DNA of 56,901 nucleotides, taken from positions 1 through 56,901 of IMG/VR virus record IMGVR_UViG_3300019776_000571, one strand, 5' to 3'. The position numbers were made by a program, and so were the translations under genes. This DNA comes from a virus. Positions 10,675 through 43,978 of this stretch are shown here, in pieces. The notes below the pieces were generated by a model. That model saw only the letters and a list, made by a program, of their open reading frames with translations, had not been told where the DNA came from and did not search any database. Position 1 is the stretch's first letter. Each line of letters begins with the position of its first letter.

Positions 10675-11331
10675 ATGGAAGATTTTTATGATGACGGAGT
10701 TAGTGCAGAAAATAATAAAATTGAAAAAAAAGAAAAGCAAGAAGAAGATATTCCGTTACGATGGAAAGAAGCAACTACTCAAATGGATTATGGTATTGAC
10801 GTAAACGCTTCAAGTGTTCTTTTGTTTGGTGAAATTATGGACGGTACTCTTTATGATTTAATTACTCGTATTAGAGCAATTTTACATATGAGAGACGAAA
10901 GTAAAAAAGATGACCCAATTAACCTCGTTATTAATTCAGGTGGTGGTTCTGTTTACGAAGCGTTAGGTATTATTGACTATATTCAAAGTTTAGATGTTAA
11001 AGTAAATACAATTGTACGTGGATGTGCAATGTCCGCTGCTGCTTTAATATTATGTTCTGGTACAGGTGTTCGTGCAGCATCTAAGAACAGTACAATAATG
11101 TTTCATGAAATGTCCTCCGATATTTACGGTAAATCCTCTGATATGAAGGCAAATGTTCAACATATGGAGAAATTAGAAGACATTTTATTAGATATTATGT
11201 ACACAAATTCCAAAAAAGACGTTGAATGGTGGAAAACAACTACAATTAAAGATTTTTATATTACACCGAAAGAAGCATTAGAATTAGGTGTTATTGATAC
11301 AATTATAAAACCCAAACATTTAAGGGGATAA
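10675..11331 (+). CDS. ClpP-type serine protease (prohead protease candidate)
   Basis: A 218-residue protein with the ClpP/crotonase-like fold: 'VINSGGGSVYEALGIIDYI' near 85-103, nucleophile Ser120 in 'GCAMSAAALILCSG', His144 in 'MFHEMS', and a probable Asp193 in 'KDFYITPKEALELGVIDTI', equivalent to the ClpP Asp. An acidic Lys/Glu-rich extension precedes the fold. ClpP-type enzymes serve as prohead maturation proteases in many tailed phages. That is the likely role here, since no separate T4 gp21-type protease is seen in the window. A role in host protein turnover is the alternative. GGAG lies 10 bases before the ATG. Confidence 0.8.
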   Translation: MEDFYDDGVSAENNKIEKKEKQEEDIPLRWKEATTQMDYGIDVNASSVLLFGEIMDGTLYDLITRIRAILHMRDESKKDDPINLVINSGGGSVYEALGIIDYIQSLDVKVNTIVRGCAMSAAALILCSGTGVRAASKNSTIMFHEMSSDIYGKSSDMKANVQHMEKLEDILLDIMYTNSKKDVEWWKTTTIKDFYITPKEALELGVIDTIIKPKHLRG

Positions 11332-12419: not shown

Positions 12420-12809
12420 ATGAGCTTTGATCAAGAATTATTTGGAAATAAAAAGTTTTCTGATTTATTAAAAGATATTTACGATAATCAGAAAAAAAAG
12501 GAACGGCAACTCAATTTATTGATTGCAGACCTAAAACCACTTATAACTAATATAAGTGATGCAGGTATGTTAGTTCCTTCTATCAAAGACTTAATGGAAG
12601 TGTCAGTTAAGAATGATGAACATTTAGTTAAATTGGCAGCGGTTATACAACGTGCTACAAGTAATAAAACTGAGGAATCTTCCTCGTTCTTGACTGATGA
12701 AGAAAAAGAAGCCTTATTAAAGGGATTTCAAGAAATTCAAGAAGAACAAGAGGAAAACAAAATTGGAACTAAATCCACAAAAGACGATTCTGAATGGTCA
12801 GGAACTTGA
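12420..12809 (+). CDS. Helical hypothetical protein upstream of the hub gene
   Basis: A 129-residue acidic, mostly helical protein (QELFGNKKFSDLLKDIYDNQ, a heptad-like centre, and an acidic C-terminus 'EEQEENK'). Function unknown. Candidates by position are a baseplate assembly factor or a chaperone for the hub. It ends 47 bases inside the next frame. TATTTATT at 12409-12416 lies only 3 bases before the ATG, too close to serve as its promoter unless the message is leaderless. Confidence 0.55.
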   Translation: MSFDQELFGNKKFSDLLKDIYDNQKKKERQLNLLIADLKPLITNISDAGMLVPSIKDLMEVSVKNDEHLVKLAAVIQRATSNKTEESSSFLTDEEKEALLKGFQEIQEEQEENKIGTKSTKDDSEWSGT

Positions 12810-15081
12810 AAACATACCTGCTGAAGTAGTTTCCGTAGATTTTAACGGTTCTAACAAAGAAAAATTATACACAATATATTGTAAAATTTTAGGGTCAGTT
12901 GGTTCACAGACACAGAATAATGTTATAGCAGCGAGGGCGCTTGATGCTAACATAAAGAACATACCAGTAAAAGGTGAAGTTGTTATGTTAATTAAAGGTC
13001 CAACTGCATATAATAGTGCTCTTCGTTCAGGTCAAGAATATTATTATACAAATCCCGTCTCAATACAAAGTTCTGTTCATCACAATGGTCTTCCAGGTGT
13101 TACAGACTTTGCTTCCATAAACAATACTCAAAACGTAAAAGCAAGAGAGGGTGCTCAAGATGGTATTGCAAATCACGTAGATACCAGATTGGAAACAGGA
13201 AAAACAATAGATCCAGGTTTTCCAGAGAGAATAGATGTTTACCCAATACAACCGTACCCTGGTGATATTATATTAGAGGGACGTTGGGGTAATTCTATTA
13301 GATTGGGTTCTACTGTTGATGAGAGAAGAGTATATTCACAAAGACCACTTTGGAAAAAAGGATTAGGTGATACTGGAAACCCTATATTGATAATTTCAAA
13401 TGGTACTAATCCAGATAAAAAACCTAATAACGAATTTATTCTTGAAGACCCAAACGTAGATGATTCATCTATTTGGATGACTTCTGGACAGTCTATCGCT
13501 TTTACTCCTGCATCAACAATAGCAGCATCGATTGCAAATCGTAGTGTTAACTTATATATAAACAACACCAATGCCGGTAATCAGATTTTAATGGCGTCAG
13601 ATAGAATATTATTAAACGCTAGAAAACAAGAATTAATGGGATTCAGTAGTGAAGGAATTGGATTTTCTTCTGAAAAAGCAATAGCGTTAGATGGTGGTAT
13701 TGTTGTTGAAATGGAAGCACCTCGTATAAATTTGGGTTTAAATGCAGTTTCTCCTGTTTTATTGGGAGACAAAACAATGCAATGGTTGGGTGATTTATGT
13801 GATTCATTAGCTAGTTTATGTTCATCTATAAGTAAACAAACTCATTTAACAGGTACGGGTGAATCATTACCACCAACTAACGCTGCAGATTTTAATAAAA
13901 TTAAATCTGATCTAAAATCATTACGCTCTTCTATAAAATCTCTTCCGAGTAATCAAGTATTTGTTTGTGAAAATCCTGGCGGACCAACAAAAGCAGAAAT
14001 GGATAAAGCTAAGGAAAGAGCTGCAAGTGGTGGTGGTTATGTTGAGGAAAATAAATTGGGCGGTGATAGACCAGATATATTAGCAGGAGCAGAATTGAAT
14101 CCACCAACAACAAACGTAGTAACTATAATCGACCAGATTAATAAAGTTGAAGTAGAGAAGAAACAAATATTAGAAGAATTATCTGCAAAATCAGGCGTTT
14201 CATTAGTACCGTTATCCGATCAAGGTAAAGCACCTGGCTTAGATACACCACCACCATCTGGTGAAGTACCTAATACCAATACCAACACAGCAGGTAATCA
14301 GCCAACCGATACCACCGTAACAGGTAATCAGCCAACTGGTACTAACACAGCAGGTAATCAACCTACACCACAGCCAGCTGCTCAAATTCCTGGTAGTGTT
14401 TCTTCCAACTATCCAAACGGTTTATCATATGAACAATTAGGTTTAGAACCTACTAAGATGAAAAATATTGGTGGTAGATGGAATTATGATGGTGATGTTG
14501 ATATTTCAGGCAAAACAAATCCAGTTACAAAGACGAGATTTACAGAAATACCTATACCTTTTGGTACGGTAGTTGGTAATTTTAAGTGTTCTGGAATGGA
14601 TCTTAAATCATTGAAAAATGCACCAACCGAAGTTGGTGGAACATTTGATTGTTCCAATAATTCTTTAGAATCATTACAGTATGGACCTAAGAAAGCAAAA
14701 TCATATATGTGTAGAAGATCAGAATTAAAGTCCTTAACTGGTGGACCAACTGAAGTTACAAGTACATTTGATTGTAGTGATAATAGATTGGATAGTTTAG
14801 TCGGTGGTCCAACTAAAGTTGGTTATTCTTACCACTTGGGTGGAAATATGAAGTTATCTTCATTGAAAGGTATTTCTTCTAATGGTCCACTTAATCCATT
14901 GCAAATATTACAATGTGATAATTGTTCATTAACCGATGTAACAATATTTGCAGGAGTAAATGAAATAAAAACAAAAACATTCAATGGTCAAATGCAGCAA
15001 GATGCATCAGATGGTACACAAATAAAATTAGATGCTACAATAATAAAAGAAATTACAGGCGCAACTAAGATTTACGTTTAA
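12763..15081 (+). CDS. Baseplate hub protein, gp5-like, with LRR tail
   Basis: A 772-residue protein. Residues 1-180 carry the OB-fold end of a T4 gp5-like hub: 'PVKGEVVMLIKGP' and 'YPGDIILEGRWGNSIRLGS' near 164-182, a motif typical of phage hub/spike proteins. No lysozyme domain follows, unlike T4 gp5. The lytic activity sits in the next genes. After a beta-rich middle and a Thr/Asn/Pro linker with repeated 'AGNQPT' (about 504-540), residues 600-735 form a leucine-rich repeat tail (units of the type 'F-D-C-S-N-N-x-L-x-S-L-x-x-x-P'). The start is TTG 12763 with AGAGGA upstream. No in-frame ATG lies nearby. Located inside the host envelope-facing end of the baseplate. Confidence 0.75.
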   Translation: MELNPQKTILNGQELENIPAEVVSVDFNGSNKEKLYTIYCKILGSVGSQTQNNVIAARALDANIKNIPVKGEVVMLIKGPTAYNSALRSGQEYYYTNPVSIQSSVHHNGLPGVTDFASINNTQNVKAREGAQDGIANHVDTRLETGKTIDPGFPERIDVYPIQPYPGDIILEGRWGNSIRLGSTVDERRVYSQRPLWKKGLGDTGNPILIISNGTNPDKKPNNEFILEDPNVDDSSIWMTSGQSIAFTPASTIAASIANRSVNLYINNTNAGNQILMASDRILLNARKQELMGFSSEGIGFSSEKAIALDGGIVVEMEAPRINLGLNAVSPVLLGDKTMQWLGDLCDSLASLCSSISKQTHLTGTGESLPPTNAADFNKIKSDLKSLRSSIKSLPSNQVFVCENPGGPTKAEMDKAKERAASGGGYVEENKLGGDRPDILAGAELNPPTTNVVTIIDQINKVEVEKKQILEELSAKSGVSLVPLSDQGKAPGLDTPPPSGEVPNTNTNTAGNQPTDTTVTGNQPTGTNTAGNQPTPQPAAQIPGSVSSNYPNGLSYEQLGLEPTKMKNIGGRWNYDGDVDISGKTNPVTKTRFTEIPIPFGTVVGNFKCSGMDLKSLKNAPTEVGGTFDCSNNSLESLQYGPKKAKSYMCRRSELKSLTGGPTEVTSTFDCSDNRLDSLVGGPTKVGYSYHLGGNMKLSSLKGISSNGPLNPLQILQCDNCSLTDVTIFAGVNEIKTKTFNGQMQQDASDGTQIKLDATIIKEITGATKIYV

Positions 15082-15093
15082 TTGGAGATAAAT

Positions 15094-17241
15094 TTGGCAG
15101 CAAGTTCTACATATACAATAACGGCAAATGACTTTGTATTTTTGGAATGTACTAAAGCAGTAGAAGAAAATGGTATAAAATTTCCAACTACTTATACGTT
15201 TGTAGAGTGTACTGATGATACAAATACAATAGAAAACGCAGCAAAATACAGAAAAAATGCTCGTGTATATAGTATGGCAAAAAAATATTGCTCTGGTGTT
15301 ATTTTTGATATTAGTAAAGAAACCGAGTTATATGTTGTAAACGGTGAATATATTGGCGATAATGTTTGTCCAGTAAAAGCAACCGATAATGCACCACCAA
15401 CTAATGTTCCTACTGGTAATCCAACCGTTAAGACAATGTTTGAAACTGGAACTAATCAACCAATGACTTTTGAATCAACACTTTCAGATGCAAAAGAAAA
15501 AAGTACATCTATAATTCTTGAAAGTGTGAAAGATACAATATTAAACAAACAATTTGATATTGATAAGTTAAAAGGTTCTGCCTTAGACGCATTAAAAGAT
15601 ATAGCACCTGGCGCTTTACAATCTTTAGCAACTGGAATCGGAGTAGACACAAAAACATTGTCTGCAATAACAAGTGTTATAGATTTTGTAGGTGGAGATA
15701 ATATTCTTAATGGTGACATTGATGCTATAAAAGCTAAATTACTTGAACAATTAGAATTAAAAAATCTATTAGAAACTGCAGCAAAACCAGAAGTATTATC
15801 AATGTTATCTAAAACACTTGGTATTCCTGAAGATATTTTATCAACCATGATTGATTCTGCAAATACTATAAAAACTTTATCTGATATACAAGACTTAAAA
15901 ACTTATCAAGCGTTAGATATTGTATTTAAAAGTAAATTAGCGAAAGATTTAGGGTTACGTGATGTTGCTTTATTGGACGGTGTGGTTACTGTAATGAATC
16001 AGTATAATTCAGATGATCCAGAGGAACGTAAAAAAGTATTTGAGACTGCACAGAAAATGGGAACTGAATTTATAAGTCTATTAAGTCCAGAAGATTCTGA
16101 ACCAGAAGTTGATCACCCACCTGGTTCAATGCCAATTGTTGATAGTCCAATGATTTCCGATATGTCTAAAATGGACTATAAAGTACAAAAAGTCGCTGCT
16201 ATTGCACTTGGATTCGGACTTGAAGAAAATGGCGTTGACGAAATGAATAATACAATTGAAAAAATAAGAAAATTCAAAGAGTTAGACGAACAGTCAAAAA
16301 ATTTGAAAGCTGGGTTAACAGAACACGTTGAAAATCTTGAAATACAAAACAGATATAATTCGGGTTCTATTGAAGATTATCAGAAAGAACACGGTTTAAC
16401 ATCAGAACAATTTCAAGCAGCGTTGACTACAACTTATGATGAAAACTTAAAAAGTAGTAGTGAACTTAATGAAAGTCCTTGTGATACTGAATTTGATCCA
16501 ATCATAGAACAATATGTAAATAGTAATGATCCTATATATTCTATTGGTTTAAATCCGGCACTTGCTATTAAAGATGCTTCTGGACAATATATTGGATACA
16601 ATGGTGACATAATATTAACAAATAATAAAAATAATATAACAGCCGAACCTTTCAAATCTATACCATTTAAGTTTAAAACTGTTAACGGTAAATTTATATG
16701 TAAGAATATTGGATTAACTAGTTTAGAAAATGCACCAGATATTGTAGAAGGTGATTTTGATTGTTCTGGTAACGAATTAATTTCTTTAGAATTTGGTCCA
16801 AAATCTGTTGGTGGAAATTATATTGCTAATAAAAATAAATTAGAAAACTTAGACGGACTTCCAAGTTCAATAGGACAAAATTTGAATTTATCTGAAAACA
16901 GAATAAGCAGTTTAGAAAATTTAGGTTGTGGAAAATCATCAACTACATCTGGCTGTCCAACTACTGTGTTTGGTGATGTTAATTTATCTAATAATGATTT
17001 AAAATCATTAAATAATGCAAATTTGAATATTCGTGGTACACTCGATGTTAGTAAAAATGAATTAACCGATGCAACTATTTTCACTGGTATACGTGAAGGA
17101 TTGGGTGGTAAGAATGAGAATTTCAATTCGGATATAAGAGTTAAGAAATTCATTGGTGTTAATCAACAACCAGACGGTGTTGGAAAACTAAGTAGTAGTT
17201 TAATTGAAAAAACATTACAAATAGATAATATAACAGTTTGA
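15094..17241 (+). CDS. Baseplate-associated protein with LRR tail
   Basis: A 715-residue protein. Residues 1-85 are a small beta domain (STYTITANDFVFLECTKA). A long Ala/Leu/Asp helical region follows (about 120-440). Residues 530-690 form the same leucine-rich tail as the 12763 and 25928 proteins ('GDFDCSGNELISLEFGP'), closing with a short unrelated cap. The middle is not recognised. The start is TTG 15094 because GGAG at 15084-15087 gives a 6-base spacing. The TTG at 15082 lies inside the ribosome site. It is 12 bases after the hub gene and 15 bases before the CHAP gene, so a hub-complex component is likely. Confidence 0.65.
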   Translation: MAASSTYTITANDFVFLECTKAVEENGIKFPTTYTFVECTDDTNTIENAAKYRKNARVYSMAKKYCSGVIFDISKETELYVVNGEYIGDNVCPVKATDNAPPTNVPTGNPTVKTMFETGTNQPMTFESTLSDAKEKSTSIILESVKDTILNKQFDIDKLKGSALDALKDIAPGALQSLATGIGVDTKTLSAITSVIDFVGGDNILNGDIDAIKAKLLEQLELKNLLETAAKPEVLSMLSKTLGIPEDILSTMIDSANTIKTLSDIQDLKTYQALDIVFKSKLAKDLGLRDVALLDGVVTVMNQYNSDDPEERKKVFETAQKMGTEFISLLSPEDSEPEVDHPPGSMPIVDSPMISDMSKMDYKVQKVAAIALGFGLEENGVDEMNNTIEKIRKFKELDEQSKNLKAGLTEHVENLEIQNRYNSGSIEDYQKEHGLTSEQFQAALTTTYDENLKSSSELNESPCDTEFDPIIEQYVNSNDPIYSIGLNPALAIKDASGQYIGYNGDIILTNNKNNITAEPFKSIPFKFKTVNGKFICKNIGLTSLENAPDIVEGDFDCSGNELISLEFGPKSVGGNYIANKNKLENLDGLPSSIGQNLNLSENRISSLENLGCGKSSTTSGCPTTVFGDVNLSNNDLKSLNNANLNIRGTLDVSKNELTDATIFTGIREGLGGKNENFNSDIRVKKFIGVNQQPDGVGKLSSSLIEKTLQIDNITV

Positions 17242-17256
17242 TAATTGGAGAAATAA

Positions 17257-18267
17257 ATGGCTTTACCAGAAATAGAGCAAAATACTATTGAAGAGGAATT
17301 AGATGGTACAACCGTTGGTGTTCCTTATAAAATTCAATTGTTGGAAAATATAATAGAAGGTGAAATAGATGAAGCAGAGTTAGAGAGTAAGGCAGAAGAT
17401 TGGAGTGATGTGAAGGCAGGTGTTTATATCGTACTTCCTGGTGATGTACCAGATGAGTCAAAGGGGGGAATTATAACATTAAGAGCTGGATGTGTTAAAG
17501 TTGGAGAGACTCCGCCACCGAATACAAATAATGGAGCATCCACTCCAAAAACAAAAGAAGAAACATCAGCAGACGCTGCTGCATCTCTTAATCCAAACAA
17601 TACTGGAATTAAAATTGGTGTTAACACTTCACAATTGAATGAAATGCAAATTGAAACTATAAACTGTGCAATAGAATGGTTGAAGAAAGGTGTACCTGGA
17701 CAAAAATGGGAAGATGCAAATGGTCGTGGACCATTAGTTGACGCAGTAAAACAAGATTTTGGATGGAAACCCGGTTCAGATGCATGGTGTGCTATGTTTT
17801 GTTCCGTTGTTGTTAGACAGGCTATGAAAAATGTAGGTTCACTTGGTCAGGCAACTAAAAATGCAAAAATAGCAAGAGAAGTAAATAATTTTCTTATGAT
17901 TGCAGGTGCCAGACTACTCGTATATTCAAACTCTCAAGCTCCATTGGTTGGAGGTGCTAAATCGGTTACTCCAGAAATTGGAGCAATATTCCATACACCA
18001 CCTGCACCTGGCGCTAATGGTTCTGGTCATGTTGGTATTGTAGTTGGTATTGATGGTCCAAAACAACAAATAATAACGTGTGAAGGTAATGCAAGTGATA
18101 GAGTTTGTCTGCATATAAGTGGTGCACAGAAAATTGCAACAATGCACTTTACATATCCAAATCGAATACCATATTCTGGTAAATCAAGAGGGAGTGCTGT
18201 ATTGACAGAAATCCCACAATTATTAAAAACCGCTTATTTAGTTGGTGGTAAATATAAAACACGTTAA
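17257..18267 (+). CDS. CHAP-type peptidoglycan hydrolase, baseplate-associated
   Basis: A 336-residue protein. The N-terminal 110 residues are acidic and of unknown fold, followed by a Thr/Asn/Pro linker. The C-terminal part is a CHAP/NlpC-like cysteine peptidase: 'SDAWCAMFCSVVVRQAM' with the nucleophile Cys near 178, 'GSGHVGIVVGID' with the His near 258, and 'ITCEGNAS' as the third active-site strand. These enzymes cut peptide bonds in peptidoglycan. Lying between the hub gene and the multi-enzyme gene, it probably opens the cell wall during infection. GGAG lies 6 bases before ATG 17257. Confidence 0.75.
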   Translation: MALPEIEQNTIEEELDGTTVGVPYKIQLLENIIEGEIDEAELESKAEDWSDVKAGVYIVLPGDVPDESKGGIITLRAGCVKVGETPPPNTNNGASTPKTKEETSADAAASLNPNNTGIKIGVNTSQLNEMQIETINCAIEWLKKGVPGQKWEDANGRGPLVDAVKQDFGWKPGSDAWCAMFCSVVVRQAMKNVGSLGQATKNAKIAREVNNFLMIAGARLLVYSNSQAPLVGGAKSVTPEIGAIFHTPPAPGANGSGHVGIVVGIDGPKQQIITCEGNASDRVCLHISGAQKIATMHFTYPNRIPYSGKSRGSAVLTEIPQLLKTAYLVGGKYKTR

Positions 18268-18308
18268 TCATAATTATATTATATGTTATTGATATATTGG
18301 AGATATAA

Positions 18309-21300
18309 ATGGCAGGTCCATTAGAACCAAGAGTAGAAACACGAGGAAAATGGGGTAGATTCAAATCCTCAAAAAAAGCATTGAACGCACCATTGGTATA
18401 TTGTGCTGGTGGAATACCATTAGGAAAGGGTTTTGGTTGTGAGGGTAAAGCGTGTGTTGCACTTCCTGGTGAATATATGTGGCCAGAAAATCCAGATGGA
18501 AGCGATGGAAGTCCTTCAGATAGTGCACAATACAAAGGATATTCTATTTTAACAGATTTTCACGTTTATACCCCAATGTATACATCTGGTGGTAAAGGTT
18601 CATCGGGCGACCATTGGAAAAACTATTCAGCGGCCACATTTGCACGAGAATCTTGGAATGATTTACAATCTATTTTAACACGATATAAAATACAACCATC
18701 TAAGAAAATAATTGTAGGTTTTTCTGGTGGTGTTGCTTTTGTAACAAACAACATTTCAACGTTTGGGGGTAGTTGGAAATATTGGGATGTTGTTTTACTC
18801 GCAGGTGCTTGGGCTCCAAATAGAGGTGATGAGAAACCAATACAAAATGCAAAGAAACAAAACCCAAATACATATTATTTTTCAGGTGGTTTAACAGCAG
18901 GTTCTGATAATTTTGATGATCCAGGTTATAGTTCTACTGCAACACTTTTTGGTAAAGACTTTATAAAAACTAGTGGGAATCACATGAGCTTAGTTCCTAC
19001 TACTGCTAATTGGATTAAAAAAAATATTACCGTTACATCTACTGGAGAAGCATCAACACCAAGTGGATTTACACCAACTGCTACCGAGGGTACTAAAACT
19101 AATAATGGAACTTCAAGTACTACAACAACTACTACTCCAAAAACAACTACGAGTGATGGTGTACGTAAACCGAGTGTATGTGATTTATTAAAAGATGATA
19201 TACCTGAAAGATTCATGAAAGAGTTGCCTACCATAATAGACAGATTCAAAATAGACAGTATGACTAAATTGATTCATTTTCTAGCTCAATGTATGCACGA
19301 ATCTGGAAACTTTAGATATACAGAAGAAATAGCAAGTGGAGCAAAATATGAAGGTAGGAAAGATTTAGGTAATAATCAACCAGGTGATGGTAAAAAATTT
19401 AAAGGTAGGGGTCTGATTCAATTAACAGGCAGAACTAATTATAAAGCATTTGCCAAGTGGATAGGTGAAGATGTTGTTACTAATCCAGAATTAGTAGCAA
19501 CTAAATATCCATTTATTTCTGCTGGTTATTATTGGGAAACACATTGGTCTGGTAATTTATTTGACCAAGCAAATGCAGGATTATCCGACGCTGTTATAGT
19601 TAAAATTACACAAAGAATAAATGGTGGAGATAATGGTTTAGAAGATAGAAGAAAAAAAACAAGGTATCTTGAACAAAAACTAGCAGGTAAAGAGTGTATT
19701 AATTGTGGTGAAAATGGTGTAGTTATATCTTCATCCGTAGCCGAAGTTAATGGAACTGATAGTCAAGTTTCAACTTCTTCAAATGATTGTAACGATTTAA
19801 TTAAAGAAGACGCAAAAGAAAAATCAAATGCATCACCAGAAGGTGCTGCAACTGAAGAAGTAGCAAAAGATCCTTTACCACCTCCTAAAGATGAAACTCC
19901 TATTAGTTTGGATGGGAGATATAATCATAGATTTTATATTTTACCAACAAAAGAAAACAAACCAATGGCATTAGCAGACATGGTAAGTAATAAGAAAAAA
20001 TATGCTAAGAGATGTTGGGCGTGGAGAACAGATGAGGGTCCAGGATACGGATACAAAGAAAATGAATATAAATTAACTACAACCGATGGTAAAAGTTTAG
20101 TTAGTGGTTTAGTTCCTTATTGGCCAGCGTATAGTGGTTCATTCGCAAGTGCTTCGTTAGATATAGATGCTTTGGAAACTCCAAAAGTCAATGGAAGTTG
20201 GAAGAAACTATTAGAAGGACAAAAAGAAATTCAATCGTTTTTAGACATTCCAATTTTATTAAATGCTTACGATGTTGGTGTTTATAACAATAATATTGAA
20301 TATATTTTTGAAGCTGGAAATGAATTACACATGACTATTTTAGAAAAGGTTGTTGTGGAAAATAAAGGTTCTCAGATTGGAATTGGTAACGCTATTAATA
20401 CAACAATAACAGATAAAAAAAATCAAGACTCAAGTTGGAGAGAATGGCCGAAATGGTCTGGAATATGGGTAAACCATTGTTTGAAAAATTCTGGTTACTC
20501 TTTACATGCACCAATAGACGTAAATATTAATACCTATCATGAGAAAATATTAGCTGGAAACAAGTTAATAAATTATCCCGGTAATAAAGAATGGAAGTGG
20601 AAAGATTTGAAAGCAGCGGGTATGCAAGACCTTGTTTTTAAACCAAGTAAAATATGGTATGATCCAGCAAACTTAAACTCAGACGAATTATTAAAAGATA
20701 GTGGTGATATTGCAATATTCATTGTTGATTATCACATAAAGAAAGATGGTACATTAACTGAAAGAGGGCAGAAATTATTAGATAAAATACTCTCATTAAA
20801 TTGGAAGTTGGGAGTGGTTTCCGCAGTAAAAAGTCATACTGCACAATCTAATCAGTTATATGCAGAAGTTTTAGTGTATCTTGATAAAACTGGTAAGATG
20901 GTTACATTTGGTGGCAATACAACACCAAGGGGAGCAGATTCTATTCCAGGTGGTGGTCCATATCACATTGCTATAAAAGAAACAAACTTCAAAGATTTTG
21001 CAATTTTAGCAGGTGATAATTGGATAAATGGTGCTGTATTCATTTCAAATGTGAAATCTGGCGGAGATGGACAAAGAGCAGGCGGTTTAGATTCTAAAAT
21101 ATACACAAGTGAAATATTCAAAGATTATTATAAACGAATAGATAGTGAAAAAGGAAAACTAACAGGTAGAATGTATAATTTTCTTTTACCATACATTGAC
21201 CAAAAACCAACTCCACCTGCACCAAAACCTGCGGAAAAAACATTAGAAGAAACAAACTTTACACCATCACCACTTACCAGTCCAGGTAATGATCCAGGTA

Positions 21301-21842
21301 GTGGTGAGCAATTGATGGGAACTGTTGCGGAATTAATAGCAAAAGGATTATTAAAAAAGTTAGAAACGTATAGAGGTGGAACATCAGAAAAGGGAGAAGC
21401 ATATCCTGGATTATTAACGGGTGGCCCTTGGAATACATTTCATGCAATGAGTGCTGATTCTGTAAAAGCAGGGGTTGGAGCAATTACAACTGGTCATGAT
21501 GTATTTAGAACTTATAACGACCAATACAAAAAATGGGTTAATGCAGGTGGTAGTAAATCACCACCATGGAAAGGACCAACTGGAAAAAATGCAACACCAG
21601 GTGGGTCTTTTCACGGTAAAGGACGTGCGGTTGATATTTCTGGTACAGCAGGTGGTACATTAGGTAAAGGAGGAAATCTCGATGCATATAGAAAAAAAAT
21701 GAGTCCACTTCAAAATTTTGCCTTTAAACACGGTATCCCTTTTGGTTGGTATAACTATTTTAATGAAGTTTGGCATTTTAATTACAAGCATGACAAAACC
21801 CTTCCTGGCAGAAATATAAGTTTGTGGACTAAGGGTGGATAA
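18309..21842 (+). CDS. Giant multi-enzyme baseplate lysin: hydrolase-like + GH19 + DUF2272-like + M15 peptidase
   Basis: An 1177-residue protein with four enzyme-like regions. (1) About 75-240: an alpha/beta-hydrolase-like part with 'KKIIVGFSGGVAFV' (nucleophile elbow Ser near 139) and a late His in 'SGNHMSLV'. (2) About 290-460: a GH19 chitinase/lysozyme-like domain, 'LIHFLAQCMHESGNF' with catalytic Glu near 331 and 'GRGLIQLTGRTNY'. (3) About 540-900: a DUF2272-like part with 'WSGIWVNHCLKNSGY' and 'TFGGNTT'. (4) About 1030-1177: an M15 D,L-/L,D-peptidase with 'GSFHGKGRAVDI' and 'EVWHFNY' metal ligands. Thr/Ser and Pro linkers separate them. GH19 cuts the glycan and M15 the peptide, so the protein can open peptidoglycan alone. 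Regions 2 and 4 are firm, 1 and 3 less so. Confidence 0.78.
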   Translation: MAGPLEPRVETRGKWGRFKSSKKALNAPLVYCAGGIPLGKGFGCEGKACVALPGEYMWPENPDGSDGSPSDSAQYKGYSILTDFHVYTPMYTSGGKGSSGDHWKNYSAATFARESWNDLQSILTRYKIQPSKKIIVGFSGGVAFVTNNISTFGGSWKYWDVVLLAGAWAPNRGDEKPIQNAKKQNPNTYYFSGGLTAGSDNFDDPGYSSTATLFGKDFIKTSGNHMSLVPTTANWIKKNITVTSTGEASTPSGFTPTATEGTKTNNGTSSTTTTTTPKTTTSDGVRKPSVCDLLKDDIPERFMKELPTIIDRFKIDSMTKLIHFLAQCMHESGNFRYTEEIASGAKYEGRKDLGNNQPGDGKKFKGRGLIQLTGRTNYKAFAKWIGEDVVTNPELVATKYPFISAGYYWETHWSGNLFDQANAGLSDAVIVKITQRINGGDNGLEDRRKKTRYLEQKLAGKECINCGENGVVISSSVAEVNGTDSQVSTSSNDCNDLIKEDAKEKSNASPEGAATEEVAKDPLPPPKDETPISLDGRYNHRFYILPTKENKPMALADMVSNKKKYAKRCWAWRTDEGPGYGYKENEYKLTTTDGKSLVSGLVPYWPAYSGSFASASLDIDALETPKVNGSWKKLLEGQKEIQSFLDIPILLNAYDVGVYNNNIEYIFEAGNELHMTILEKVVVENKGSQIGIGNAINTTITDKKNQDSSWREWPKWSGIWVNHCLKNSGYSLHAPIDVNINTYHEKILAGNKLINYPGNKEWKWKDLKAAGMQDLVFKPSKIWYDPANLNSDELLKDSGDIAIFIVDYHIKKDGTLTERGQKLLDKILSLNWKLGVVSAVKSHTAQSNQLYAEVLVYLDKTGKMVTFGGNTTPRGADSIPGGGPYHIAIKETNFKDFAILAGDNWINGAVFISNVKSGGDGQRAGGLDSKIYTSEIFKDYYKRIDSEKGKLTGRMYNFLLPYIDQKPTPPAPKPAEKTLEETNFTPSPLTSPGNDPGSGEQLMGTVAELIAKGLLKKLETYRGGTSEKGEAYPGLLTGGPWNTFHAMSADSVKAGVGAITTGHDVFRTYNDQYKKWVNAGGSKSPPWKGPTGKNATPGGSFHGKGRAVDISGTAGGTLGKGGNLDAYRKKMSPLQNFAFKHGIPFGWYNYFNEVWHFNYKHDKTLPGRNISLWTKGG

Positions 21843-21931: not shown

Positions 21932-22363
21932 ATGGAATCGAATCAGTTTTTTAAGAAAATCCGAGAAATAATCAGAGAAGAAATAGATTACGCATTGGAT
22001 AAAAAATTAAATACGCCACCAGTAAACAAAAAAAGTCAAAAGGAAACTATTGAGCATGGTTTAGCTTTATTAAAGCAATATCAAGATAAACCTAAACCTC
22101 AACAAAAACCAAAACAATCTAATTCAAATTTCGGTTCTATACAGGATATTTTGGCAGAAACAAGAAGAACATTACAAGAAAGTACCGATTTAGACGGTGA
22201 ATTTTCATTCACATCTGATATGGCAAGCGGATTTGGCAATTCTAAATACGGTGCTATACCACAAGGTGTTGATCCAACAGAAGTTCCAACAGAAGTAATG
22301 AGTGCATTGACAAGAGATTATTCTGCACTTGTTAAGAAAATGGACGAGAAAAAAGGGAGATAA
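21932..22363 (+). CDS. Small virion/baseplate protein, unknown
   Basis: A 143-residue protein. A helical N-terminus (FFKKIREIIREEIDYALDKK) precedes a Gln/Lys/Pro-rich linker (KPKPQQKPKQ). A C-terminal part follows with 'SIQDILAETRRTLQE' and 'EVMSALTRDYSALVKKMDEKKG'. No family recognised. The N-terminal 'IIREE' segment resembles an I-x-E cleavage site, but weakly. It is the first gene of the unit that continues with gp25 and gp6, so a baseplate part or assembly factor is likely. Confidence 0.6.
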   Translation: MESNQFFKKIREIIREEIDYALDKKLNTPPVNKKSQKETIEHGLALLKQYQDKPKPQQKPKQSNSNFGSIQDILAETRRTLQESTDLDGEFSFTSDMASGFGNSKYGAIPQGVDPTEVPTEVMSALTRDYSALVKKMDEKKGR

Positions 22364-22367
22364 TTAA

Positions 22368-22862
22368 GTGGCTATGTTCAGAAGAGAAAGAGTTACTGTA
22401 AATACTACAAATCCTGCAATAAACTTTGGAAAACCTATTGGTATTTTAGTTCCATTCAATGCAGAAACTGGTATATTTAAGCAAAGTTATACTAATAACC
22501 AACAGGTACTCTCTAATCTTAAAAACTTGCTATTAACCGCAAAAGGTGAACGGTATTTATTGCCGACTTTTGGGACAGACATACGAATGATTCTTTTTGA
22601 AAACATAGTTAGTGAGGATGATTTTACAAACAGAATAAATTCTGAAATAGAGGGTGCAATATCCGAATGGATGCCATATTTGGTTATAGTAGAATTACAA
22701 ACTATAATACCAGAACAAGACCCAAGATTAGATGATCCAGGTCATGCTGTTCAAGTAAAACTCGTTGTTAAAATTGGTGGTACAAACATTTATCTACCCA
22801 TACAAATACTTATATCTGAGACAGGAAACTTACAAATAAAAGAGGCGGTTTATAATGGCTGA
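22368..22862 (+). CDS. Baseplate wedge protein gp25-like
   Basis: A 164-residue protein of the GPW/gp25 family, the small wedge component at the sheath-baseplate junction. Marks: 'LSNLKNLLLTAKGERYLLPTFGTDIRMILFEN', where 'G-E-R-x-x-x-P-x-F-G' is the family signature, and a C-terminal beta region. The start is GTG 22368 with GGGAG 9-13 bases upstream. It overlaps the gp6-like gene by 8 bases, the usual order in T4-like phages. In such phages gp25 joins the gp6 dimer and starts sheath assembly. Confidence 0.85.
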   Translation: MAMFRRERVTVNTTNPAINFGKPIGILVPFNAETGIFKQSYTNNQQVLSNLKNLLLTAKGERYLLPTFGTDIRMILFENIVSEDDFTNRINSEIEGAISEWMPYLVIVELQTIIPEQDPRLDDPGHAVQVKLVVKIGGTNIYLPIQILISETGNLQIKEAVYNG

Positions 22863-24756
22863 TTTAGTTAAAAAAGACATACGTTACCTTTCAAGAGATT
22901 TTACCTCCTTGAAACAAAATCTTATTGATTTTACAAAAAACTATTTTCCAAATACGTATCAGGATTTTAACGAAACTTCTCCAGGAATGATGTTTTTGGA
23001 AATGGCTGCATATGTTGGTGATGTTCTTTCATATTACACCGACGTTACTTTACAAGAATCAATGATTTTACATGCAACAGAAAGAACTAATATATTTAAT
23101 GCTGCACAATCACTTGGTTATAAACCAAAAAACAGAATTGCTGCAAATGTTACTCTTGATGTTTTTCAAGTAGTTCCTGCTAAAACAGTTACTTCCCCAA
23201 GTGGTAGTTCTATTGTTCCAGATTATTCATATGCTTTTTCTATCGAACCAGGAATGGTAGTTGGACCATCAGCAACAAATGGTACAGAATTTAGAACAGT
23301 TGATTTCATAGACTTTAAATTTAGTTCAGATATTGATCCAACAGAAATAACTCCATTTGAAGTAAATGGAAGTGGTGAAGTTTTATTTTGGTTATTGAAA
23401 AAACAAGTAAAAGCGGTTTCTGGTAATGTAAACTATATTGATTATGAATTTAATGATCCAAAACCATATGATAGAGTTGTTTTGGAAAATCAAGACATGA
23501 TAGAAATTTTATATGGAATCGATTCAGATAATAACGTTTGGTATCATGTTCCGTATTTAGCAGTTGATACTGTTTTCGATCCAGTATTAAATGTTGCAAG
23601 AAACGATAGAGAATTATCTTTACATAGAACTGAAACACCATACTTACTAAAACTTAGAAAGGTTTCAAGGCGATTTACAACAAGAACAGTTGATCAGGGT
23701 ATATATGAAATTCAATTTGGTGCAGGTGTTTCCGATATAGATGATGAAGAACTAATTCCTAATCCAGATTTAATAGGGAATTCACTAACTGGTCTTGAAA
23801 GTTCTGTTTCTTTAGATATTGATCCTTCAAATTATTTATATACAAAGACATACGGACTTGCTCCAAACAATACAACTTTAAGAATATATTATACAACTGG
23901 TAAAGGTATTCAAGATAATGTTGCGAGTGATGTTTTAACAAGAATAATTTCACGTAATATATTATTAGATGAAACTGGTTTAGACCCAGTATTGTATAAT
24001 CAAGCAATTTCAAGTTTGGCTGTAACAAATCCTGTTCCAGCAGTTGGTGGTAAAACAGTTGAGGATATAAATGAAATTCGTCAAAACGCTTTAGCATATT
24101 TTGCTGCTCAAAATAGAGCGGTAACAAAAGAAGATTATATAATCAGAGCATATAGTTTACCATCAAAATATGGTTCAATAGCTAAAGCATATATTACAAA
24201 AGATACACAACTAACAGTTGAATCTATTTATAATAGTGAAAGAATCCAAAACAGTTTGGCTCTAAATTTTTATATTCTTGGATATGATGCAAATGGAAAA
24301 TTAACAACCATTAATGATGCAACAAAAGAGAACTTAAAAACATATTTGAATTATCACAGATTACTAACCGACGCTATTAATATTCGTGATGCGTATATTA
24401 TAAACATAGGTATTGAATTTGATATAATAACATTTCCAGATCAAAATAGTAATCAAGTAATTCTTCGTTGTATAAACAAACTAAAAGAATATTTTGATAT
24501 AAGGAAGTGGCAAATAAATCAACCAATAGTGTTAAGTAATTTATTTACTGAATTGGATAGAGTAGAGGGTGTACAAACTGTTGTTGATATTAGACTTACA
24601 AATTTATATGATCAAACATTGGGTTATTCACCACATGCCTATAATTTACAAGAAGCAACAAGAAATGGAATTGTATTTCCTTCTTTAGACCCTTCAATTT
24701 TTGAATTAAGATTTCCAGACAATGATATTCTCGGTAGAGTGAGGGCATTCGGATGA
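22855..24756 (+). CDS. Baseplate wedge protein gp6-like (baseplate J family)
   Basis: A 633-residue protein. The N-terminus 'KKDIRYLSRDFTSLKQNLIDFTKNYFPNTYQDF' followed by 'GMMFLEMAAYVGDVLSYYTD' is characteristic of the gp6/baseplate-J family. 'RAVTKEDYIIRAYSLPSKYGSIAKAYI' in the middle is the second hallmark. Length is close to T4 gp6 (660). It forms the ring that ties the wedges together. The ATG overlaps the end of gp25 by 8 bases, and the gene's own stop overlaps the next ATG. Confidence 0.85.
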   Translation: MADLVKKDIRYLSRDFTSLKQNLIDFTKNYFPNTYQDFNETSPGMMFLEMAAYVGDVLSYYTDVTLQESMILHATERTNIFNAAQSLGYKPKNRIAANVTLDVFQVVPAKTVTSPSGSSIVPDYSYAFSIEPGMVVGPSATNGTEFRTVDFIDFKFSSDIDPTEITPFEVNGSGEVLFWLLKKQVKAVSGNVNYIDYEFNDPKPYDRVVLENQDMIEILYGIDSDNNVWYHVPYLAVDTVFDPVLNVARNDRELSLHRTETPYLLKLRKVSRRFTTRTVDQGIYEIQFGAGVSDIDDEELIPNPDLIGNSLTGLESSVSLDIDPSNYLYTKTYGLAPNNTTLRIYYTTGKGIQDNVASDVLTRIISRNILLDETGLDPVLYNQAISSLAVTNPVPAVGGKTVEDINEIRQNALAYFAAQNRAVTKEDYIIRAYSLPSKYGSIAKAYITKDTQLTVESIYNSERIQNSLALNFYILGYDANGKLTTINDATKENLKTYLNYHRLLTDAINIRDAYIINIGIEFDIITFPDQNSNQVILRCINKLKEYFDIRKWQINQPIVLSNLFTELDRVEGVQTVVDIRLTNLYDQTLGYSPHAYNLQEATRNGIVFPSLDPSIFELRFPDNDILGRVRAFG

Positions 24757-25927: not shown

Positions 25928-27538
25928 ATGTTAAAGAGAGATACATTAACGGGAAGAATAATAAGTTATACATTAAACAGCGGAGTAGAAAACGAAGGTT
26001 CGTTGGATGTTGCTGTTATTGATGGTAGATTCCTACGTTCAGAATTTAACAGAGTAATAGATACAAAATTCAAAACATTACCAGCAGCTGTAAATGCAGA
26101 AAATGTTGTTTTAAATAAAATAAAGAAAGCACAGGTGGATATAATGAAACCAGATACATCTACGATACTTCCTTTATCGGTAGATACTACAAAGTTAACA
26201 CCTGCTCAATTAAAAGAATTAGCAAAACAAAATTTCTTGTCAAATATAGCAAATCTGATAGATGAAAACGGTACAAGTCCTGCAAGTTATGAGACAAAAT
26301 TAAATAATATGCAAGAACAATTAGCAACTAAAGATTCTATTATAAGTCAACAAATACAAACAATTTCAAAATTTGATGATGTTTTATCATCTGTTTCTGC
26401 TGAAAGAGCGTTAGCTATTGCAAAAACAGAAAGATTAAGGGCTGCTAATGTTGCCTTACAAAGACATGCAGAAGAGAAATTAACACGGATACAAAATGAA
26501 GTTGTTGCTCAACGAGAAGAATCTAAAAAATCTGCTGAAGCATTAAAAACTGCTTTGGTAGATAATATAAGTGCAACAAATACAAAACAAGATGTTGATA
26601 TTGAACAACTTAAATTACAAAATTTACAACTTCAACAGAATTTACAAGATACAAATAAAGCAATAATTGATTTAAAAACAACACAAACAACACAAACAAC
26701 ACCTACTACACCGACTACGCCAACAACACCTCCATCATCAGATAAGGAATTTTTCTCCTCTCCTACTTTATCAAGAGAAGGAAAATTATCAGAGTTGGGA
26801 ATTACTGATCCATCAAAGGCAGCATGGAGTAAAGACCCTTCAACCGGTGAAGATATTATTAGTATATCTCAAGATTTCAAAGTTCCTGGCGTTAAGATTA
26901 AAAATGGTAAGGTAATGTTGCCAATAAAATTTGGAGGAGTACAAGGTAAATTTGATTGTTCTAATTTAGGTTTAACTACATTAGAGGGTGCACCGACTGC
27001 ATGTGATTCATTTATTTGTTCAAACAATAAACTTAAAACATTAGAATTTAGTCCAATACGAGTTTATCAGGGAGTTATTGATGTTTCTAATAATCAATTA
27101 GAAAGTTTGGTTGGTGGTCCAAAAATGGGATTTAACGTACAAAAATCTGGTGACAATCCTAACACATATAGAAATACTTTTAGTAGTTATAATTGCTCAA
27201 ACAATAATCTTAAAACATTAGAAGGTTATCCAGATGGTCAAAGTCAAATAGTTAATGATGCAGGACAAATAACATATGTTAAAGAAGTTTCAATAGGACA
27301 ATTTGATTGTTCAAATAATTTATTATTATCAGACTTACGTTTTGTTACACCAACAAATGTAGATTCTCCAATACTAAAATTTACAGCAACTAAATGTAAT
27401 CTTTCAGATTTATCATTTGATACTACTTCTATTCAATTCAATTGTGAAACATTTGTAGGAGATCAACAAATAAATGGTAAAATTCTCAATATAGAAAAAG
27501 TAAAATCATTCACAAAAGCAAAAACGGTTATTGTATAA
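25928..27538 (+). CDS. Coiled-coil baseplate protein with LRR tail
   Basis: A 536-residue protein. The N-terminal 100 residues may bind the baseplate (MLKRDTLTGRIISYTLNSG). A coiled coil runs about 120-255 (QLATKDSIISQQIQTISKF, LQNLQLQQNLQDTN), followed by a Thr/Pro linker with repeated 'TTPTTP'. Residues 335-536 form leucine-rich repeats of the same type as in the 12763 and 15094 proteins, opening with 'GKFDCSNLGLTTLEGAP'. This pattern (stalk, flexible linker, ligand-binding tail) suggests a short fibre or a trimeric baseplate extension that binds something on the cell. Function is inferred. Confidence 0.65.
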   Translation: MLKRDTLTGRIISYTLNSGVENEGSLDVAVIDGRFLRSEFNRVIDTKFKTLPAAVNAENVVLNKIKKAQVDIMKPDTSTILPLSVDTTKLTPAQLKELAKQNFLSNIANLIDENGTSPASYETKLNNMQEQLATKDSIISQQIQTISKFDDVLSSVSAERALAIAKTERLRAANVALQRHAEEKLTRIQNEVVAQREESKKSAEALKTALVDNISATNTKQDVDIEQLKLQNLQLQQNLQDTNKAIIDLKTTQTTQTTPTTPTTPTTPPSSDKEFFSSPTLSREGKLSELGITDPSKAAWSKDPSTGEDIISISQDFKVPGVKIKNGKVMLPIKFGGVQGKFDCSNLGLTTLEGAPTACDSFICSNNKLKTLEFSPIRVYQGVIDVSNNQLESLVGGPKMGFNVQKSGDNPNTYRNTFSSYNCSNNNLKTLEGYPDGQSQIVNDAGQITYVKEVSIGQFDCSNNLLLSDLRFVTPTNVDSPILKFTATKCNLSDLSFDTTSIQFNCETFVGDQQINGKILNIEKVKSFTKAKTVIV

Positions 27539-27552
27539 CATAGGATATTTTA

Positions 27553-30500
27553 ATGTCAAATTTTAATTATACAAATATAGATTCTATACTTCAAGCAAAC
27601 GGTCCAATACGTGGTACTAGATTTAGATTAACTTCTATAAGAAGAAAATTAGTTGTACCCGTTATAAGTGAACCGACTGATCAATATTTTGGTTTAGAGT
27701 CGAGTCTTGAATTACATGCTTTTTTAGATAATACTAGATATGTGGATAACAGTTCTCTATATGATTTACCATTTAGTATTGAAAGTAGAGTTGAAAGTAT
27801 AACCGCAAATAATGTAACAGAACAAGTAACGAGGAAATATGTTGTAATAGATGTTTACGATCATGTTCAAAGACTTTTAGATTTGCCACCTGAAAAATAT
27901 AAAATTGTTTATAATTTTATTAGAAATTTGATTGGTGGTGCAAGTAATGATACTGATAGATTATTTATTTCTGATATTTCTCAAGATAGAAAAGAAATAA
28001 AATTATCATTAAAATATCCAGATAGTCAAACTGGAAAACAGGCTTTAGAAAACTTTGTTTTAAGTTATTTGGCATCAACTAAATACTTACCACCTATTAT
28101 TTTGAATTTCGGTGAAAATCTGATAGTAGACGTTGTTAATATTGCTTCCGATGGTGATAATACTTACTTTTATGCAAAATTATATGATCCATTACCAAAC
28201 GATGTTGATTTATATTATGAATGTTGGCTAGGAAGCCAGACGTTAAAACCATGGATAGATGTGGTTGATGTTAGATTCGCAGATGAAATTGAAAAAATCC
28301 CTTATATTAAAGGACCTAACTTTGAAGTTGACTATGATTATTGGGTAAACACAGAAACAACATATAAATCTTGGACTGATTTACTTTCAACTAATGTACA
28401 AACATCGCAAGAAATTCTTAACCGATATGTAAATAATACTGGCTCTTCGGTACAACTGAATGTTGATTTTAGAAATTTTGGAAATTTCATATTCTATTCC
28501 TCAGCAGAAGATAGAGTTGCTAATTTCTTTTATAAAACAGAATTAGTTCAACAATATAATTCACAACTTTCAATATTAAACACATATACTGGATCTTTAT
28601 CTTCTAATATTGTAAAAGTAAAAGGACTTAGAGATAAAGTTATAAGTGGATTTGACGATTTTGAAAAGTGGTTGTATTATGAAACAACTGGTAGTAATTT
28701 TTATACTAGTCAATCCGTTGCTTTAGTTACACCATTTCCAAAATATGAAGTTAACATTACTTCAAGTGACTACCATATAGCAACTAAAGAAGGTAAGTAT
28801 AAATTATATCCAGTTACTTCTTCCAATGTTTTGGATTGGTATGATAATATTTTGGACTTGGCTTACGATTATGACTTAAAAAATTATAACTCGCTTAATA
28901 AAGCAATACCAGAATATATCAGAGATGATGGACAAAGTGAACAGTTTACAACTTTTGTAAATATGATTGGACAGCATTTTGATATTTTATATTTATACAC
29001 CGATCACATACTAAAGAAAAACACAAGACAAGAAAATCCAAAAGACGGACTTTCTCAAGATTTGATTTATGAAACAACACGTAATTTAGGATGGACATTA
29101 TCGCATGGAACACAAGCAAAAGACCTTTGGGAATACGCTTTAGGTTTAAGTGGTAGTGGTGAACCAGTTTGGACAGGTAAAACTACAACAAATAAATACT
29201 TAACTAAATCTGAAGAAGAAAGAACAAAAGAAGTTTGGCGTAGAATATTAAATACTCTTCCATATATTTACAAAACAAAGGGAACTGCAAGAAGTGTTAA
29301 AGCATTACTTGCTGCTTATGGTATTCCACAATCAATTCTTGCAATTCGTGAATACGGTGGACCAGATAATGCCGATTTTGGAAAAACTCCAAAGACGGAA
29401 TGGGAAAAATATACAAACTATCTTTCTTTTTTAGGAAGTAGGCAGCAACCAACAACAAATCAATATGTTCGAGTTCCTTGGGAAAAAGTAAATAATACTA
29501 ATAGTCAATGGCAATATCCAGATACTTTGACGTTCCGATGGAAAATGCACAATTCAAAGTATTATGAATACAAAAACGATTCGGTACAAACACTTTTACA
29601 AAAACAATCTGGTAGTAGATTGGATTGGTATGTAACAATAGAGCATGATGGTACAGACTACGATAAAGGAAGTTTGACTTTCCACATGAAAGGTGAGGAC
29701 ATTACCACAACTGGTGGTTGGTCAAAAATATCAGCAGGGTTCAATCATAGTACCGCTGTTAAAACAGACGGAACACTTTGGGGTTGGGGATTGAATACCA
29801 ATGGTCAACTTGGTGATAATTCCACTACAACTAAATCAAGTCCAGTTCAAATTGGAACTCTTTCAAATTGGTCTTATGTATCAGCAGGCGATAACTACAC
29901 ATTAGCAGTTAAAACTGACGGAACACTTTGGGGTTGGGGACAGAACACTTATGGTGAACTTGGTGATAATTCTACTTCAACTAAATCAAGTCCAGTTCAA
30001 ATTGGTACTTTATCTAATTGGTCAAAGGTAGAAGGTGGAAATAACCATGTATTAGCTCTTAAAACTGACGGTACACTTTGGAGTTGGGGTTTTAGTGGTA
30101 ATGGTGAATTGGGTCAAGGTAGTACTGTATCACGTTCTTCTCCAGTACAAATTGGAACTTTATCAACTTGGTCATCTATATCAGCTGGTTCAAACCATTC
30201 ATTTGCTATAAAAAATGATAATACTTTATGGGGTTGGGGTAGAGGTGGTTTTGGTGAATTAGGAGATAATACAACTGTTAATAAATCTTCTCCAGTACAA
30301 ATTGGTTCAAGTTATTCAGTAGTTTCTGCTGGTGGATATTATACATTAGCAGTTAAAACAGACGGAACATTATGGGCTTGGGGTTATAATAATAAATACC
30401 AACTCGGTGATGGTACTACTAATACATATTCATCGCCAATTCAAATAGGTACGGGATTCGCAACAGTATCCGCTGGACCAGATTCTGGTGGGTTGAATTA

Positions 30501-43021: not shown

Positions 43022-43978
43022 ATGATAAATTATGATTTACTTAATTTGTTAGAAAAAGTTCTTGGTAAGGGACGAAAAACTTCTGGCAATAACTACTCTT
43101 TTTTCTCTCCGTTCATTTCCCATTACAAACCAAAATTAGAAATAGATTTAAGTGCATCTAACGATGGACAAAATGTATGGCATTGTTGGGTGAGTAACGC
43201 TAAGGGTAGAAATATATCCTCACTATTCAAAAAATTAAAAGTCGATAGGTCTTACTATGCTGATTTGGATAAAATCATAAAGACCAGAAAACTTTATGTT
43301 TCTGATCAAAAAGAAACAAAAGAAATTCAATTAAGTCTTCCATCGGAAACTATTCGTTTGTATGAATACGGTAAAATAAAAGACATACAAACTAAAATGC
43401 AGTTAAAACAAGCAATAGATTATTTGAAAAAGCGAGGAATCAGTAGAACCGATATGATTAGGTATGATATTGGCTATTGCCCAAATGGTGCTTACTCAGG
43501 TAGAATAATTGTTCCATCGTACGATGATAATTTCAATTTGAATTTTTTTGTTTCTCGTTCTATTTTTGATGAGGATACATTAAAATATAAAAATCCAAAA
43601 TGGAGTAAAGATGTTATTGGTTTTGATTCATTTATTAATTGGAATGAACCTATAACTTTAGTTGAAGGTGTGTTTGATGCAATTAGTGCTAGGTATAACA
43701 CTATACCACTTTTTGGCAAACTAATGTCAAACTTATTAAAAGAAAAAATATTACTACGTAAACCACCGAAAGTAATTGTTGCTTTAGATAACGATGCAAG
43801 AAAAGATGCATTGAATATTTCAAGTTATTTGGTTAGAAATGGAATAAATGTTTCCATTGTAAATTTAGAACAAAAAGATGTAAACGAGGTTGGATTCAAA
43901 GAATTTACTTTAATCAAAAGTAAAAGTAAGAATACCGATACATATGATATTATTAAACAAAGGATTTTGAATGCTTAA
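43022..43978 (+). CDS. DNA primase, DnaG/gp61-type
   Basis: A 318-residue protein. The TOPRIM core is visible: 'ITLVEGVFDAISA' with the conserved Glu near 213, and 'KVIVALDNDARKDAL' with the D-x-D near 254-256. 'AIDYLKKRGISRTDMIRYDIGYCPNG' is the typical linker between zinc domain and TOPRIM. The N-terminal zinc-ribbon place (about 22-65, 'FFSPFISHYKP...VWHCWVSNAKGRN') holds only one Cys, so the metal site appears lost. It makes RNA primers for lagging-strand synthesis and should act with a replicative helicase not in the window. Overlaps the next gene by 8 bases. Confidence 0.85.
   Translation: MINYDLLNLLEKVLGKGRKTSGNNYSFFSPFISHYKPKLEIDLSASNDGQNVWHCWVSNAKGRNISSLFKKLKVDRSYYADLDKIIKTRKLYVSDQKETKEIQLSLPSETIRLYEYGKIKDIQTKMQLKQAIDYLKKRGISRTDMIRYDIGYCPNGAYSGRIIVPSYDDNFNLNFFVSRSIFDEDTLKYKNPKWSKDVIGFDSFINWNEPITLVEGVFDAISARYNTIPLFGKLMSNLLKEKILLRKPPKVIVALDNDARKDALNISSYLVRNGINVSIVNLEQKDVNEVGFKEFTLIKSKSKNTDTYDIIKQRILNA

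Follow-up and report, generated by a model that had tools for sequence, protein, structure and literature searches.

A putative baseplate lysin set that may have grown around a CHAP/NlpC-like domain with a lost active site

The window, a stretch of 56,901 nucleotides of viral DNA (IMG/VR record IMGVR_UViG_3300019776_000571), contains two adjacent putative lysin genes within a group of baseplate genes, all read from the plus strand. The first (17257–18267) encodes a 336-residue protein with a conserved N-terminal segment and a CHAP domain. The second (18309–21842) encodes a composite lysin of 1177 residues, delineated by its relatives and their alignment. Both open reading frames had been placed at these positions by the original prediction and are real. 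A hub-like protein of 772 residues, named from its position, is encoded upstream of the lysin slot (12763–15081), and a further gene (15082–17241) sits between it and the two lysin genes. Residues 1–412 of the hub-like protein share 59–65% identity with the product of the gene at the same place in five relatives. A small conserved gene (21932–22363) forms the 3′ border of the slot and is followed by gp25-like and gp6-like baseplate wedge genes (22368–22862 and 22855–24756), assigned by PHROG matches. The 1177-residue protein is also encoded by seven relatives in IMG/VR, and residues 1–1160 or more are covered in six of them.

Several other genes in the window were also noted. A ClpP-like head maturation protease (10675–11331; phrog_94, 9e-36) is encoded just upstream of the baseplate genes. 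A 1690-residue tail protein (27553–32625) has RCC1 repeats in its central part (phrog_4219, 3e-50), which probably form a β-propeller inserted in a baseplate protein. The proteins encoded at 12763–15081, 15082–17241, and 25928–27538 appear by eye to have in common a C-terminal leucine-rich-repeat-like tail of the DCSNNxLxSL type, and tails of a similar kind are found in L022 and L038–L040 (related loci are designated by L numbers). The open reading frame at 43971–47117 matches SbcD-like (residues 4–359) and SbcC-like (residues 242–1047) PHROGs and may combine two nuclease subunits in one protein.

The 336-residue protein comprises an N-terminal segment (residues 1–80; 17257–17496), defined by our own profile, and a CHAP domain (17629–18156) with C178, H258, and N278, identified by Pfam, PHROG, and these residues. 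The CHAP domain scores above the Pfam cut-off (27.9 versus 26 bits, E = 3.5e-6) and keeps C178, H258, and an EGN motif, which bears out the CHAP peptidase proposed for this gene. The N-terminal segment is conserved in relatives while the C-terminal enzyme is swapped. The latter is CHAP in the window, L006, and L032, M15_4 in L002 and L003, and GH19 in L023. Instead of a known enzyme, the preceding genes of L004, L005, L022, and L029 carry a C-terminal domain of about 260 residues, termed domain X (for example L004 6634–7917, L022 3745–5049, and L029 6682–7995). Domain X of L004, L022, and L029 has no match in Pfam or PHROG. A divergent phosphodiester glycosidase was considered for domain X of all four loci and rejected, as the hhalign probability of 0.4% was no better than that of controls.

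Residues 1–80 are a candidate docking segment. A weak sequence likeness suggests that the minimal lysins described below may have a segment in common with the preceding gene. The hhalign P values are 0.004 and 0.0096, against 0.33–0.83 for controls, and an hmmsearch places the genes preceding the long one in L029 and L022 directly after the profile members and L073 (E = 0.04–0.06).

The 1177-residue protein consists, in order, of an α/β-hydrolase domain (residues 1–245), a GH19 domain (290–465), a central region (525–965), and an M15/VanY-type peptidase (1030–1163). The first region (18309–19043) had been described as hydrolase-type, and structure prediction indeed gave an α/β-hydrolase fold (pLDDT 71, pTM 0.78). 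A PDB sequence search with this region returned nothing significant. The model has 362 PDB matches at E 1e-3 in Foldseek, and all 1000 of the PDB chains listed for it align with a Z of at least 5 (best 13.2, 173 residues aligned, rmsd 3.3 Å). All 10 rows of an alignment have S139, D200, and H225, so that the earlier naming of Ser139 and a His near 227 as key residues was right to within two residues. A wider set keeps S-D-H in 13 of 14 rows, two of which (the window and L008) are the same gene, and the exception, L051, has S-E-H. The best structural matches are mostly esterases, thioesterases, and lipases, making an ester substrate reasonable. A common fold alone is no proof of function. The earlier suggestion that the domain has no obvious role on peptidoglycan and may act on an envelope ester fits this fold.

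The GH19 domain (19176–19703) also passes the Pfam cut-off (30.6 versus 25.5 bits, E = 3.6e-7). It matches phrog_181 at 2.7e-46 and solved GH19 endolysins at phmmer E values down to 2e-24, in agreement with its original assignment. The M15/VanY-type peptidase (21396–21797) is under the Pfam cut-off of 25 bits in the window (21.0), above it in L002 (28.1), L003 (35.8), and L005 (27.0), and just under it in L004 (24.8) and L006 (24.4). Its residues H1102, D1109, E1153, and H1156 do not vary across the 7 alignment rows and follow the pattern HxxxxxxD…ExxH, which we take to be the zinc and catalytic motif of M15/VanY. The M15 assignment is supported by these residues and by the scores of the three relatives.

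Three enzyme types (GH19, M15, and CHAP) are thus supported by profiles, rather than two catalytic domains only, and the fourth, the α/β hydrolase, by fold and triad. A set of at least three lytic types adjoining baseplate genes is what had been predicted, and the gp25-like and gp6-like wedge matches lie nearby. The set had further been said to reside mostly on one polypeptide. GH19 and M15 do occur together, while CHAP belongs to the preceding protein and the remaining region, called DUF2272-type, appears to be no enzyme.

This central region (19881–21203) has no Pfam match to DUF2272 at E up to 1 or up to 10, with the HMMER filters applied, and no meaningful match in Pfam, PHROG, or PDB sequence searches. 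Its predicted structure has a confident core (mean pLDDT 64), and Foldseek finds no match for it in the PDB at E 1e-3. The VIA-align rows are mostly papain-like, CHAP, and NlpC proteins, including phi812 and Andhra chains, and are weak (best Z 5.5, 108 residues aligned, rmsd 3.5). Other rows, namely ubiquitin proteases, ribosomal chains, and spike chains, were taken as noise. In an hhalign comparison with the CHAP domains of the slot itself, the His-strand-Asn blocks align with each other (P = 1.1e-4, probability 57%). Minimal relatives contain WCG, T-H or D-H, and GGN motifs, resembling the Cys-His-Asn of CHAP/NlpC peptidases. The same motifs in the kin of the window read WSG, then Y or F in place of His, and GGN. 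On the basis of the motifs, the weak VIA rows, and the hhalign pairing, the central region is read as a distant CHAP/NlpC-like domain.

In the window, the position of the nucleophilic Cys of intact relatives is occupied by Ser717 (codon 20457–20459) and that of His by Tyr851 (codon 20859–20861); Asn870 is kept. For this reason the domain is predicted to be catalytically dead and is not to be counted as an enzyme, contrary to the original prediction, and the tally of enzymes on the long protein should fall by one. The region probably has a distant CHAP/NlpC-like fold without being an enzyme. In sequence terms, it appears to be a homologue of CHAP/NlpC-P60 peptidases and not an active member.

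A profile search with the central-region alignment found 28 loci. The count and the tree comprise 42 distinct central domains, with L008 (the same gene as in the window) removed beforehand and near-identical domains with single differences, such as L014 and L015, left in. Cys and His are both present in 23 of the 42; the other 19 have Ser or Asp where Cys would be. In these 19 degenerate domains, Tyr, Phe, or Arg mostly stands in for His. L049–L051 and L054 have Asp at the nucleophile position, and Asn has also become Asp in L049 and L050. L051 and L054 have lost Cys and retain His, and both belong to the degenerate clade. A tree that omits the catalytic columns puts the 19 degenerate domains, including that of the window, together on one side of a single branch with a support of 100/100. 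The change is interpreted as loss, not gain, because the intact forms are spread over the rest of this unrooted tree and fit the CHAP/NlpC pattern.

Selection on the degenerate domain is strongly purifying. The dN/dS ratio is 0.07–0.16 over residues 525–965 (seven pairs) and 0.04–0.18 over residues 655–900, and the former range argues that the domain is not a relic. Moreover, E668, E672, H674, and H809 are conserved whether the site is intact or degenerate: they occur in all 17 rows of one alignment and in most, though not all, of the 43 rows of a wider one. This selection and the four invariant residues would also suit a domain that is still an enzyme, acting through Ser717 or through another site involving these residues. 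Such an activity is very unlikely, since most degenerate forms have replaced the partner His by Tyr, Phe, or Arg, and four loci have Asp at the nucleophile position, two of them with Asp for Asn as well. A Ser–Tyr pair is not known to act as a papain-like dyad.

Loss of the active site coincides with a richer set of modules. None of the 23 proteins with an intact domain carries an α/β hydrolase, GH19, GH24, M15, SLT, or NAGPA domain according to our own profiles. Some of these proteins have long N-terminal parts in which the profiles may overlook enzymes. Pfam detects no enzyme in seven of the intact proteins, mostly with longer N termini (L094, L100, L113, L073, L076, L112, and L082). Extra modules are present in 18 of the 19 degenerate proteins, and the 19th (L054) ends at a contig end. 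An intact central domain and extra lytic-type modules can nevertheless occur side by side, since L039 has the former next to a separate NAGPA-domain gene.

Because the tree holds one transition, the link between active-site loss and module gain has a sample size of one. The two events might accordingly be unrelated and inherited by chance in the same clade. We consider this unlikely, given that the domain was retained under strong selection after the loss and that the replacements at both sites are varied. Retention and varied replacements together suggest that other enzymes took over.

The retained domain could alternatively be specifically wall-binding rather than a structural scaffold. Pfam shows no known cell-wall-binding domain elsewhere in either lysin protein, which is in keeping with such a role. 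There is also a precedent: in the staphylococcal endolysins LysSA12 and LysSA97 (PMC6024855), the central amidase domain is reported to be inactive on intact walls and to raise binding. These endolysins likewise have a domain of catalytic fold that gives binding and not cutting, but they are Gram-positive endolysins with an amidase, whereas the domain in the window probably has a CHAP/NlpC-like fold and belongs to a baseplate gene set. Against a dedicated binding role, the intact single-domain forms would also need to bind. On this analysis, specific wall binding is somewhat unlikely, and a broader scaffold role is preferred.

The slot was further surveyed in the best 80 loci selected by the gp6-like gene, a sample from a larger number in which near-identical contigs were counted. 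Both border genes are present in 43 of these loci and absent as a pair in 37. A lysin-type domain lies between the border genes in 41 of the 43: 18 loci have an intact central domain alone, 15 have GH19 without a central domain, and 8 combine a degenerate central domain with modules. The other 2 have no match to any of our own profiles. Among prokaryote genomes, 68 stretches matched a pattern, and none of the 68 encodes a gp6-like relative. A 2553-residue open reading frame in L091 (1–7659), located ahead of the slot's small gene, contains two GH19 domains (residues 158–318 and 1211–1394).

The GH19 and GH24 matches carry the PHROG label 'endolysin', as would be expected of lysis-time endolysins that are merely situated among baseplate genes. 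That interpretation is highly improbable in view of the slot, whose borders are the hub-like gene on one side and, on the other, the small gene that precedes the gp25-like and gp6-like genes, and of the lysin-type domain found there in nearly all loci having both borders. In addition, the CHAP region of the window and the C terminus of L032 hit PHROGs whose labels are baseplate hub and tail lysozyme. A function in the baseplate is therefore favored over one at lysis.

Minimal central-domain proteins in the relatives measure 456–629 residues. They clearly share an N-terminal segment with several GH19-only lysins (4e-15 to 8e-4), and its occurrence in the two kinds of lysin suggests a common docking piece with an exchangeable payload.

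The modules around the central domain vary. The glycosidase place of the long protein is filled by GH19 in the window and L001–L003, by GH24 in L004–L006, and by nothing in L022, L023, and L029. The C terminus carries either M15 or, in L032, L060, and L061, a pair of lysozyme-like and NAGPA domains. NAGPA (phosphodiester glycosidase) domains in tail-slot genes were noted in L039 (4062–8195; Pfam 4e-14) and L032 (8194–12003; 1.4e-6), and in L060 and L061 by our own profile.

L003 and L005, which come from different metagenomes, are 98–100% identical in DNA over alignment columns 600–1000. The identity is 38–66% over columns 0–500 and 1100–1300, with border blocks of 72% and 79%. Likewise, dS between the two is 0.03 over residues 525–965, compared with 1.10 for the α/β hydrolase and 1.26 for M15. 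The contrast in identity and dS shows recombination within the gene; what the two loci have in common is the degenerate domain. By these measures the gene is a mosaic and the degenerate domain is the fixed point of its recombination. Exchange of endolysin genes through recombination is known in lactococcal phages (PMC9371310).

Lytic activity carried by the baseplate opens the cell wall at infection in phage T4, where the tail lysozyme is a single domain inside the hub protein gp5. The window resembles T4 in the predicted placing of a lytic function in the baseplate. It differs in that several enzymes lie on two adjacent proteins and no lysozyme domain is detected by Pfam or PHROG in the hub-like gene at 12763–15081. 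The claim that the lytic functions have left the hub is consistent with this result, the label 'hub' being positional.

Virion-associated peptidoglycan hydrolases such as staphylococcal HydH5 and the phi812 hub CHAP are modular tail lysins that include CHAP. The lineage of the window is distinct from these in keeping a degenerate CHAP-like domain fixed while up to three other modules vary around it, and in including an α/β hydrolase. Tail-associated NlpC/P60 peptidases are described in jumbo phages (PMC7824862). WWT39505 of Microcystis phage Mel-JY01 (PP395634) occupies the same slot between a hub-like and a small gene and has GH19 and the N-terminal segment of the minimal lysins, but it is a single GH19 lysin of 343 residues without the central domain or the α/β hydrolase. 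The minimal lysins of L014, L034, L036, and L037 share the slot and a homologous central domain (28–29% identity). In contrast to the window, their Cys, His, and Asn are intact, the proteins have 456–480 residues and no added modules, and no separate lysin gene lies ahead. A search of 50,697 deposited phage records gave no match to the central domain or to the α/β-hydrolase region, and literature searches on these lysins found no report of a degenerate peptidase as a tail scaffold.

Taken together, these baseplate-associated lysins have probably grown around an ancestral CHAP/NlpC-like peptidase that is now a dead scaffold, with the surrounding modules exchanged by recombination. The two genes would encode a lysin set that opens the cell wall at infection, and gene order would place it in the virion. 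The 1177-residue protein would have grown around the CHAP/NlpC-like domain, which is the sole enzyme detected on its protein in related phages. The lineage of the window would then have lost the Cys and most of the His, with the domain kept as a folded scaffold for docking, spacing, or wall binding. Around it would be gathered, with their motifs intact, an α/β hydrolase, a module that cuts glycan (GH19 or GH24), and one that cuts peptides (M15), with a further enzyme on the preceding protein (CHAP in the window). Phages would exchange these modules by recombination through the homology that they share in the degenerate domain.

On contact with the cell, GH19 would cut the glycan, the peptidases the peptide bonds, and the α/β hydrolase would remove an envelope ester. 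The inactive central domain would hold the modules in place or bind the wall. More tentatively, the dead peptidase may be a recombination and assembly platform in the tail tip, on which esterase-like, GH19, GH24, M15, lysozyme-like, and phosphodiester glycosidase modules are exchanged.

Modular lysins and tail lysins are known already. Here, one slot can be traced from a single intact enzyme to a protein of four modules that retains the original fold but no longer its active site. It lends itself to testing how an enzyme may become a scaffold in a virion machine, and provides a natural series of the wall-cutting activities that phages combine. If the dead peptidase is indeed such a platform, the lineage would refit its wall-penetration toolkit to the host while leaving the baseplate interface unchanged.
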